Assembly (NCBI GenBank): GCA_001438205.1
Contig: LICG01000013.1
Coordinates: 1-41,872, forward strand
DNA from: Cryomorphaceae bacterium BACL7 MAG-120322-bin74
Lineage (GTDB): Bacteria > Bacteroidota > Bacteroidia > Flavobacteriales > Schleiferiaceae
Length of the DNA: 41,872 nt
Reading direction: 5' to 3'
The notes under the pieces were generated by a model. That model was not told where the DNA came from. It ran no database searches and saw only the letters and a program-made list of their open reading frames with translations. Every line of letters begins with the position of its first letter. Position 1 is the first letter of the stretch. A program made the position numbers and the translations under genes. Shown piece after piece: positions 1,137 to 3,356 of the stretch.

Positions 1137-2216
1137 TTATTTAGCCGCCCGAAGGTAGAGGAAGCCGCCCAACGCCGCAAACAATACATTGGGGAGCCAA
1201 ACAGCCAACCATGGGCCAATGGAAGGGGACGAAACAAAAATGTTGCTGAGCTGCATGACAAAGATGTAGGATACCGCTAAAAGCAATCCTAGGGCAATTT
1301 GTGCGCCAATGCCCCCCCGTCGTTTTTCGGATGCGAGCGCCACTGCAATCAATACAAGAATGAAGGTGGAGAATGGATAGGCGCTGCGTCGGTGCCATTC
1401 CATTTCGTGATACGTAACCGCTTCTGAACCACTCAGTCGCTCCTGTTTTAAAAATCGCCAGAGCACAGGTGAAGTCATAGTTGCCGTGCTGCGCAAATCT
1501 GGCGCAATGGTACTGGGCCCAAAGGTAAAAGCGCTGTCCAGACGACGACCCCGAGTCAGGATTTGATGACCTTTTTCATTCCATTTTCTGAGCACCCAAT
1601 TGTCAAGTTGCCATTTTTGTCGCGCTGTATCAAAGCGAATAAAGTCGCATTGCAGTTTTTCGCGCATTTTGTCTTGATCAAAAACCTCGTACGTGAAATG
1701 ATATCCGCCTAATCGCTCAGGACTCCAGGTTTCGACATAGACAAAATGTCCCGGCAAAACTTGTCGGTGAATATTAATGGGTCTAGAGGGCGTGACATCC
1801 TGAACATAGGTGTCTTCAAAGTGAATGCGCCGAATATTGGTCTGCGGAATAATGAAATGGCTTAAGAGTGCACTGAACAAAAAGACGACGAGCGCACCAA
1901 AAAAATAAGGGCGCAGCAGGCGTGGGAAGGAAATGCCGCCGGTGAGGGCTGCGATAATTTCTGTTTGATCTGCCATTCGCGCAGTGAAGAAAATCGTCGA
2001 CAGGAAGACAATGAGGCCACTAAAAGTGGTGCCATAAAAGGCAATAAAATTGATATAGTAGTCTGCAAAAATGGCATGGACACTGGCGCCTTGGTTGATG
2101 AAATTGTCCAATTTTTGGCTGATATCAAAAACGACCGCAATGAGCATGACCAAGCTCATGAAAAGGGCATAATTCCCCAAAAATTTGAAAAATATATAAC
2201 GGTCCAGACGGTTCAT
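1137..2216 (-). CDS. LptF/LptG-family (YjgP/YjgQ) lipopolysaccharide export permease
   Basis: A 359-residue protein with the YjgP/YjgQ layout: N-terminal basic start and membrane helices (MNRLDRYIFFKFLGNYALFM, then a helix around residues 55-75 and another around 100-120), a large soluble periplasmic part (roughly residues 125-265) and three C-terminal helices. In the LPS transport machine, LptF and LptG form the inner-membrane permease of the LptB2FG ABC exporter that extracts LPS. Which of the two this is cannot be decided from sequence; Bacteroidota usually have two unlinked paralogues. It follows tgt by 9 bases and precedes the EamA gene by 6, so it sits in a tgt operon, an arrangement often seen in this phylum. 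Confidence 0.85.
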   Translation of the reverse strand: MNRLDRYIFFKFLGNYALFMSLVMLIAVVFDISQKLDNFINQGASVHAIFADYYINFIAFYGTTFSGLIVFLSTIFFTARMADQTEIIAALTGGISFPRLLRPYFFGALVVFLFSALLSHFIIPQTNIRRIHFEDTYVQDVTPSRPINIHRQVLPGHFVYVETWSPERLGGYHFTYEVFDQDKMREKLQCDFIRFDTARQKWQLDNWVLRKWNEKGHQILTRGRRLDSAFTFGPSTIAPDLRSTATMTSPVLWRFLKQERLSGSEAVTYHEMEWHRRSAYPFSTFILVLIAVALASEKRRGGIGAQIALGLLLAVSYIFVMQLSNIFVSSPSIGPWLAVWLPNVLFAALGGFLYLRAAK

Positions 2217-2225
2217 GGCAACTGC

Positions 2226-3356
2226 TTACAAGCGATGTTGGAGTTTGGGGACCATGGCATTCTTCCATGAGGCAAAATCACCTGCCTGGATATGGGCACG
2301 GGCTTGTTCAACGAGCCAAAGGTAGAAGCGCAAATTGTGGATGCTGGCGATCTGCTTGCCAAGGTTTTCATCTGCGATGAAGAGATGGCGCATGTAAGCT
2401 TTGCTGTAGCGTTGGTCTACAGAGGCATCCCCGTAAGGGTCTAGGGGGCTAAAGTCCTCCGCCCATTTTGCGTTGCGCAGGTTGATGATGCCTTCTTGTG
2501 TAAATATCTGGCCATTGCGGGCGTTGCGGGTGGGCATGACACAATCAAACATATCTACGCCTAACGCGATGTTTTCCAAAATATTGGCTGGAGTTCCGAC
2601 GCCCATCAGGTATCGCGGCTTGTCCTGCGGAAGAATGCGGCAAACTTGATCCGCCATGGCATACATTTCTTCTGCGGGTTCGCCAACACTTAGCCCGCCA
2701 ATGGCGTTTCCCCAGGTATTCTTTGAGGCAATATAGGCTGCAGATTCTGCGCGTAAATCAGGGTATGTACTGCCTTGAACAATGGGGAAGAGGGCTTGAT
2801 GATAGCCATATAGCGGTTCTGTCTCCTCCCAGCGCGTAATACATCGGTCAAGCCAACGATGCGTTCTATCCATAGCCTCTCGGGCGTAGGGTTTTGCGCA
2901 GGGGTAGTCGGTACATTCATCAAAAGCCATCACAATGTCTGCCCCAATCTTACGCTGAACCTCCATGACGGACTCTGGCGTGAAAAGGTGCCTGCTACCA
3001 TCAATATGTGATTGGAAATTCACTCCTTCTTCGGAGATTTTACGAATGGCTTGAAGACTATGGACTTGGAAGCCCCCGCTGTCCGTGAGCATGGGGCCAT
3101 CATAGGTGGTAAAGCCGTGTAAACCTCCAGCTTTTTCTAACACATTGATTCCAGGGCGTAAATACAAGTGATAGGTATTGCCCAGCACAATATGCGCCTT
3201 GATATCGTCCTTGAGTTCCGTAGGATGAACGCCCTTTACGGTGCCTAATGTTCCCACAGGCATAAAGATGGGGGTAGGCACATCGCCGTGGTCGGTTTTT
3301 AGGAGTCCGGCACGGGCAGAACTACCGGGATCTTTCGCTACAACATCAAATCGCAT
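2226..3356 (-). CDS. tgt: Queuine/preQ1 tRNA-ribosyltransferase (Tgt), without the usual zinc cysteines
   Basis: 376 residues, normal length for bacterial Tgt, which exchanges guanine-34 of tRNA Asp/Asn/His/Tyr for preQ1 in queuosine synthesis. The barrel signatures are present: general-acid Asp92 in LTDSGGFQV, substrate-pocket GGLSVGEP near residue 220, and the nucleophile Asp271 in DMFDCVMPTRNARNG. In the C-terminal subdomain the family normally carries a zinc site Cys-x-Cys-x2-Cys plus a His. Here the aligned positions are Gly309, Ala311 and Asp314 (DPYGDASVDQRYSKAY), with only His340 kept (ASIHNLRFY). From memory, other Bacteroidota Tgt proteins show the same loss, so this is likely lineage-wide rather than a broken gene. 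First gene of a minus-strand operon; promoter box at 3361-3368. Confidence 0.95.
   Translation of the reverse strand: MRFDVVAKDPGSSARAGLLKTDHGDVPTPIFMPVGTLGTVKGVHPTELKDDIKAHIVLGNTYHLYLRPGINVLEKAGGLHGFTTYDGPMLTDSGGFQVHSLQAIRKISEEGVNFQSHIDGSRHLFTPESVMEVQRKIGADIVMAFDECTDYPCAKPYAREAMDRTHRWLDRCITRWEETEPLYGYHQALFPIVQGSTYPDLRAESAAYIASKNTWGNAIGGLSVGEPAEEMYAMADQVCRILPQDKPRYLMGVGTPANILENIALGVDMFDCVMPTRNARNGQIFTQEGIINLRNAKWAEDFSPLDPYGDASVDQRYSKAYMRHLFIADENLGKQIASIHNLRFYLWLVEQARAHIQAGDFASWKNAMVPKLQHRL

Follow-up and report, generated by a model that had tools for sequence, protein, structure and literature searches.

Can a tRNA guanosine(34) transglycosylase (Tgt) do its work once its structural zinc site is gone? 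The question is raised by the tgt gene in the 41,872-nucleotide stretch of DNA that was analysed here (hereafter the window), a contig of a 1.74 Mb genome (G000) that is 96.8% complete. A passage of PMC9508795 states that "TGT require zinc for activity", a part of PMC6165067 calls the zinc domain of Tgt a hallmark, and PMC4425180 in part describes the zinc-site residues as highly conserved. We found no description of a zinc-free Tgt in the literature searched, which comprised titles, the starts of abstracts and passages, with subscription journals outside the search. The window Tgt is a variant of a well-known enzyme, and its interest lies in the breadth and repetition of the loss. We consider it likely to be a working tRNA-guanine(34) transglycosylase without structural zinc, that is, a preQ1 homodimer enzyme with an Asp-His-held loop, in a family that has lost the zinc site repeatedly.

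A Tgt without its zinc-binding cysteines

The window Tgt matches NCBIfam TIGR00430 at 468.1 bits (cut-off 306.75), with residues 12-373 covered, and Pfam PF01702 at 513.1 bits (cut-off 26.3). A profile search of the whole genome returned one TIGR00430 match only, and that match is the zinc-free Tgt. Coordinates of the gene, its key codons and two other genes of the window are given in Table 1.

Table 1 Features of the window discussed in the text.
Feature	Position in window	Strand	Basis
LptF/LptG-family permease, directly downstream of tgt	1137..2216	-	TIGR04408, 140.8 bits, below cut-off 240
tgt, tRNA guanosine(34) transglycosylase, 376 aa	2226..3356	-	Pfam PF01702, NCBIfam TIGR00430, AlphaFold2 model
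Codon His340, sole former zinc ligand retained	2337..2339	-	Translation and alignment
Codons 317-324; Tyr317, Tyr321 and His324 correspond to Z. mobilis dimer hot-spot Trp326, Tyr330 and His333	2385..2408	-	HMMER alignment
Codons 309-314, former zinc knuckle; Gly309, Ala311 and Asp314 for Cys-x-Cys-x2-Cys	2415..2432	-	Translation and alignment to E. coli and Z. mobilis Tgt
Codon Asp271 (Z. mobilis Asp280, nucleophile)	2544..2546	-	Translation; kept in 313/313 Tgts
Codon Asp92 (Z. mobilis Asp102, acid/base)	3081..3083	-	Translation; kept in 241/241 zinc-free and 72/72 zinc-bearing Tgts
Type B (zinc-free) ribosomal protein L31	24944..25195	+	NCBIfam NF002462, 106.6 bits against cut-off 86

The zinc stretch aligns without gaps, by HMMER, to the solved enzymes of E. 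coli (10fb, PECDCYTCR...IHNLR) and Z. mobilis (1ozm, SECHCAVCQ...EHNIA), and where these have C-x-C-x2-C the window Tgt reads G-D-A-S-V-D. An earlier reading made from the sequence alone (the sequence-only reading) had named the same three replacements and had placed them within 2330-2440; its residue numbers are exact on the translation, codons 309-340 occupying 2337-2432. It was likewise right that His340 and the active-site Asp92 and Asp271 are retained. The only Cys residues in the protein are 148, 153, 172, 239 and 272.

The pocket residues Asp146, Cys148 and Val224 are invariant in a 48-row alignment (A1), and Asp146 is present in all 313 Tgts tallied. They correspond to Asp156, Cys158 and Val233 of the preQ1-type pocket of Z. 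mobilis Tgt. The roles of pocket residues 158 and 233 (Z. mobilis numbers) are covered in part of PMC6165067. The aromatic hot spot of the Z. mobilis dimer interface, described in a passage of PMC5395182, comprises Trp326, Tyr330 and His333 together with Phe92 of the mate. Among the zinc-free Tgts, His324 is found in 241 of 241 and Tyr321 in 239, and position 317, that of Z. mobilis Trp326, is Tyr or Phe in 223 of the 241 and in 68 of the 72 zinc-bearing Tgts. Since His324 and Tyr321 match hot-spot residues, the homodimer is probably retained in the window Tgt. Judged by homology and active site, then, the protein is a Tgt; it is not filed as a zinc-protein Tgt because Gly309, Ala311 and Asp314 stand at the positions of Cys318, Cys320 and Cys323.

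The LptF/LptG-like neighbour of tgt also occurs in Bacteroides and Parabacteroides records. Elsewhere in the window, the NF002462 match above cut-off bears out the claim that L31 is the zinc-free form. Type B (C-minus) L31 parallels the window Tgt: each is a version, lacking the Cys ligands, of a protein with structural zinc. For L31, zinc-binding and zinc-free paralogs occur in pairs that are controlled by zinc; the zinc-free Tgt, by contrast, is the genome's only TIGR00430 match.

Predicted structure

The AlphaFold2 model of the window Tgt has a mean pLDDT of 92.2, and AlphaFold2 leaves metals out of its models. Across residues 301-360 the pLDDT is 95-99; folding of this region is predicted even with the zinc ligands gone, in line with the suggestion of the sequence-only reading that it is stabilised by other means. 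Against 1q2r the model gives Z 52.8 and rmsd 1.5 over 372 aligned residues at 46% identity, and the TIM-barrel Tgt fold is predicted to be unchanged. The same modelling was applied to L034 (f52), a zinc-bearing Tgt of this phylum. This Tgt has a short helix at residues 309-313, equivalent to 312-316 of the window Tgt, that contains the third Cys; this zinc-knuckle helix becomes coil in the window model.

The Z. mobilis and E. coli enzymes (1pud, 1q2r, 10fb; TIGR00430) thus resemble the window Tgt in fold and in Asp102/Asp280, Asp156, Cys158, Val233, Tyr330 and His333. They differ from it in that three of the four zinc ligands are replaced in the window Tgt and the zinc-knuckle helix is predicted to be coil. 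In addition, Arg328 in the S-R-A-Y stretch of the Z. mobilis protein is Lys319 here. Human QTRT1 (6h42, 7nq4) is a homologous catalytic subunit (E about 1e-84), but it has a three-Cys plus His zinc site and uses queuine as substrate, according to part of PMC6165067.

Distribution of the zinc site

TIGR00430 has a match in 53 of 60 near relatives and in 292 of 296 phylum-sample genomes. Out of 386 genomes, 374 had a match and the Tgt was read from 223 of these, plus 91 named records. The reading was non-random, combining the top-scoring loci of each search with rows hand-picked for breadth and low score. Before counting we dropped L179 (G123, at a contig edge with no readable frame), L170 (G234, split frame), L171 (the second Tgt of G239) and L242 (identical to L139), which left a tally of 313 Tgts, from 222 genomes and 91 named records; loci L400-L410 lie outside the 313. 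Groups were named by class searches, except that f46, f61, f63, f62, f56, f64, f48, f59 and f52 were placed by tree. Chlorobia were recognised by the FMO protein, present in 61 of 61 genomes sampled from the class.

Of the 313 Tgts, 241 are zinc-free, with none or one of the three Cys, and 72 have all three Cys and the His. No Bacteroidia Tgt read keeps the three Cys (0 of 166; 83 from genomes and 83 from named records), so the loss in the window Tgt is neither chance nor sequencing error. The sequence-only reading had mentioned similar losses in other Bacteroidota, and all 166 Bacteroidia Tgts read agree with it. Some genomes of the window's order encode a Tgt with 97-98% identity to named Flavobacterium Tgts, which suggests that the window genome belongs to Flavobacteriales. 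Zinc-site loss is a lineage feature in Bacteroidia, and it is old in the window lineage, every Bacteroidia Tgt read being without the site.

Beyond Bacteroidia, the site is missing from all 12 Tgts of Chlorobia with f62 and from all 31 of the class of G218 (f27, f32, f34, f35, f37, f39, f43, f45, f51, f55, f57, f58) with f56 and f64. The class of G247 is mixed: the site is kept in the Tgts read from f28, f30, f33, f40, f47 and f65-f69 and absent in those read from f36, f38, f41, f50, f54 and f60. One family of this class, f44, holds both states, with the site in G175 and G298 and without it in G149. A four-genome class, f26, keeps the site in four of four. The sample from outside the phylum is small and drawn from E. 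coli and a plasmid collection; in it the site is present in 14 named Tgts (Pseudomonadota, Bacillota, Fusobacteriota and Actinomycetota) and absent from four of Hyphomicrobiales (below).

Some unusual tgt genes were met during the survey. G239 (f48) carries, beside its normal Tgt, a second, divergent one (L171, 308 bits) that keeps the four zinc ligands and both catalytic Asp residues. On an IncC plasmid of Klebsiella pneumoniae (L202), a divergent tgt is flanked by rsmH and the resistance gene rmtG; its product has kept the zinc motif intact. In Sinorhizobium sp. M103 (L410) and in L170 of G234 the tgt frame is in two pieces, of which a sequencing error or a true loss may be the cause.

How often the site was lost

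An rpoB tree of 56 genomes, one of them E. coli, requires five changes of state, and the starred branches force at least three. The zinc-free groups on this tree are Bacteroidia with the class of G218, Chlorobia, f54/f60, f50 and the f36 group. A sixth loss would have to be counted for G149 (f44), a genome outside the rpoB tree. A single zinc-free clade is rejected on rpoB (AU test, 36 rows, lnL difference 109, p 0.00094). The Tgt alignment itself asks for five changes with 108 rows or four with 53 rows.

Further evidence comes from Hyphomicrobiales. Four Tgts of this order from PLSDB (L405-L408; Sinorhizobium, Shinella, Methylobacterium) are without three of the four zinc ligands, and in a fifth record the tgt frame is broken. 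Like the window protein they are otherwise normal Tgts whose zinc site is gone, but they read S-x-C-x2-T/A, with the middle Cys alone left and the His changed to Ser or Asn, and their origin lies within Alphaproteobacteria. In the Tgt tree they group with Paracoccus and Sphingomonas, both site-bearing (support 100/99), and a clade of all zinc-free rows, Hyphomicrobiales and Bacteroidota together, is rejected (25 rows, lnL difference 120). The Hyphomicrobiales loss is thus independent of the Bacteroidota loss, and here the Tgt tree settles the matter by itself.

An alternative to repeated loss is that the site disappeared once, early, at the root of the Bacteroidota group, and that gene transfer later spread or overwrote this state. 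For the Tgt alignment, a single zinc-free clade within the phylum is compatible with the AU test (53 rows, p 0.277), and because of this value gene transfer within the phylum stays a weaker alternative. However, such a history has to contend with the rejection of a single clade for the species by rpoB, with both states occurring in one class and within f44, and with replacement residues that vary by lineage (below), and it leaves the Hyphomicrobiales unexplained. We regard it as unlikely. The sequence-only reading had proposed that the loss may mark one zinc-free Tgt subfamily; this is rejected by rpoB and by the tree with Hyphomicrobiales, though not by the Tgt alignment alone within the phylum, and the lineage-specific replacements speak against it as well. 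The site has been lost several times.

Replacement of the zinc site

The residues that took the place of the Cys ligands differ between lineages. For the first Cys the commonest replacement is Gly among Bacteroidia, Phe among both Chlorobia and the f37 group, and Leu among others. The third has become mostly Asp in Bacteroidia, Ser in others and Asn in G149; Chlorobia and the majority of the f37 group still have Cys there. The Tgt of G382 (f54) has a half-decayed site, C-x-T-x2-S...H. His340 accompanies Asp314 in 128 of 129 Tgts, against 67 of the 112 zinc-free Tgts that have another residue at 314 (Fisher test, with rows counted regardless of descent; one class supplies 128 of the 129 rows with Asp314); in the other 45 of these 112, position 340 is Gln. 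Because Asp314 almost always occurs with His340, we propose a contact between the two, and the pairing suggests that an Asp-His contact may stand in for zinc in the window lineage.

Among the columns listed, those that differ most between the two states are 309, 311, 314, 319 and 298, all in or beside the zinc subdomain. Arg at column 319 is found in 63 of 72 zinc-bearing and 37 of 242 zinc-free rows, and Trp at column 298 in 2 of 72 and 209 of 242, the 242 including one duplicate row. Chlorobia are zinc-free yet keep Arg319 and Tyr298. The changes at 319 and 298 would have the look of a local staple being replaced. Tested as independent pairs, with two pairs on starred branches, columns 319, 347, 298, 334, 335, 312, 313, 308 and 350 gave no significance as compensating columns.

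The same residues could instead belong to a rebuilt site, whose new ligands, for example Asp306, Asp310, Asp314 and His340, would coordinate zinc or a harder metal (Mg, Ca, Mn, Fe). Both Asp and His can serve as metal ligands, Asp314 is a new residue that goes with His340, Asp306 is present in 153 of 166 Bacteroidia, and Asp310 is also present in the window genus. Asp306, however, is equally conserved in zinc-bearing Tgts (66 of 72), which makes a rebuilt Asp306/Asp314/His340 site less likely, and Asp310 is found in only 28 of the 166 Bacteroidia. In other zinc-free lineages position 314 is Ser, Asn or Cys and position 340 is often Gln, so a metal would not generally be needed. We therefore hold a rebuilt site to be distinctly improbable, and favour a loop held by the Asp-His contact.

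A new zinc site elsewhere in the protein, made from Cys153, Cys172 and Cys239, is less probable still. Cys172 occurs in 162 and Cys239 in 112 of the 166 Bacteroidia Tgts; among zinc-bearing Tgts, Cys239 is seen in just 1 of 72. Against this, Cys239 is absent in the zinc-free Chlorobia, f36, f50, f54/f60 and f37 groups, and zinc-bearing Tgts also have Cys172 (23 of 72) and Cys153 (46 of 72). Zinc-free and zinc-bearing Tgts alike conserve Cys148 and Cys272, so at most three Cys would be free for such a site, and we judge it very unlikely.

Activity and the queuosine pathway

QueA and QueG catalyse the two steps after Tgt. QueA was found in 64 of 65 genomes searched and QueG in 23 of 24, the window genome among them in each case; there, QueA gives 376.6 bits and QueG 337.9 bits, the latter from a 307-aa frame, and both frames are open. 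For QueF, the window genome (96.8% complete) has no TIGR03139 match at E 0.001, and 5 of the 8 other Bacteroidia searched (G012, G024, G029, G038, G241) have none; the match in G136 is below cut-off. Bacteroidetes are predicted, in a passage of PMC10570037, to be among the main queuosine sinks, salvaging precursors. As QueA and QueG are found in the genome and QueF is not, the preQ1 source in the window lineage is likely salvage.

Genetics bears on one zinc-free lineage. The Tgt of Sinorhizobium meliloti strain Ak57 (L406, on a 3.7 Mb record labelled pSymB) has no zinc site. In S. meliloti 1021, according to passages of PMC3568095, a tgt insertion mutant shows defects that resemble those of strains mutated in queC or queF, preQ1 rescues the queC and queF mutants but not tgt or queA, and a queA mutant has little or no symbiotic defect. 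The mutants are of strain 1021, with tgt on the main chromosome, and the sequence read is that of Ak57; provided that 1021 matches Ak57, the defects of the tgt mutant would lend genetic support to a working zinc-free Tgt in this lineage.

With catalytic residues invariant, QueA and QueG intact and S. meliloti tgt mutants defective, zinc-free Tgts look active. That the window Tgt is instead decaying or inactive, in a lineage without queuosine, is the least probable of the alternatives: the missing QueF matches are in its favour, but the tgt frame is open, every one of the 241 zinc-free Tgts has the catalytic residues, the genome encodes QueA and QueG in open frames, and the predicted salvage of PMC10570037 would make Bacteroidetes users of queuosine precursors.

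The searches also returned some matches of a different kind. QueA matches occur with no TIGR00430 Tgt match in G202, G250 and G254 (f49), G036, G045, G047 and G096; the state is shared by three genomes of a single genus (99% complete) and may reflect a divergent Tgt, an assembly gap or another use of QueA. G000 also encodes a second, longer QueA-like protein (contig C1, about 80150-81316, minus strand), a 410-aa frame whose match is split in two and lies below cut-off, and split QueA-like matches are found in many of its relatives.

What the loss of zinc may mean

On the reading that we prefer, a Tgt homodimer would swap guanine 34 for preQ1, and the loop once clipped by zinc to the C-terminal helix would now be held by ordinary side-chain contacts and packing. 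In the Bacteroidales/Flavobacteriales form, Asp314, at the place of the former third Cys, would touch His340, the former His ligand, and metal would be absent from the window Tgt. The zinc of Tgt is then probably a removable staple that lies outside catalysis, because the loss in this lineage goes far back and the site was lost separately elsewhere; as the same loss arose separately in other bacteria, zinc is probably dispensable. We give an even chance to the fuller account, in which this staple was removed about six times in the Bacteroidota-Chlorobia group and once in Hyphomicrobiales, each time with replacements of its own, leaving queuosine synthesis independent of zinc at its tRNA step in whole classes of bacteria, with an Asp-His contact in place of the metal in the window lineage.

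If Bacteroides, Flavobacterium, Chlorobia and some rhizobia do without zinc, the claimed zinc requirement of Tgt is not general. Were this so, the role of the metal would be testable with natural proteins from either side of several losses, and drug work aimed at the zinc/dimer subdomain would have to reckon with a second form of the enzyme. The family would then offer a clean case of the repeated swap of a structural metal for protein contacts.
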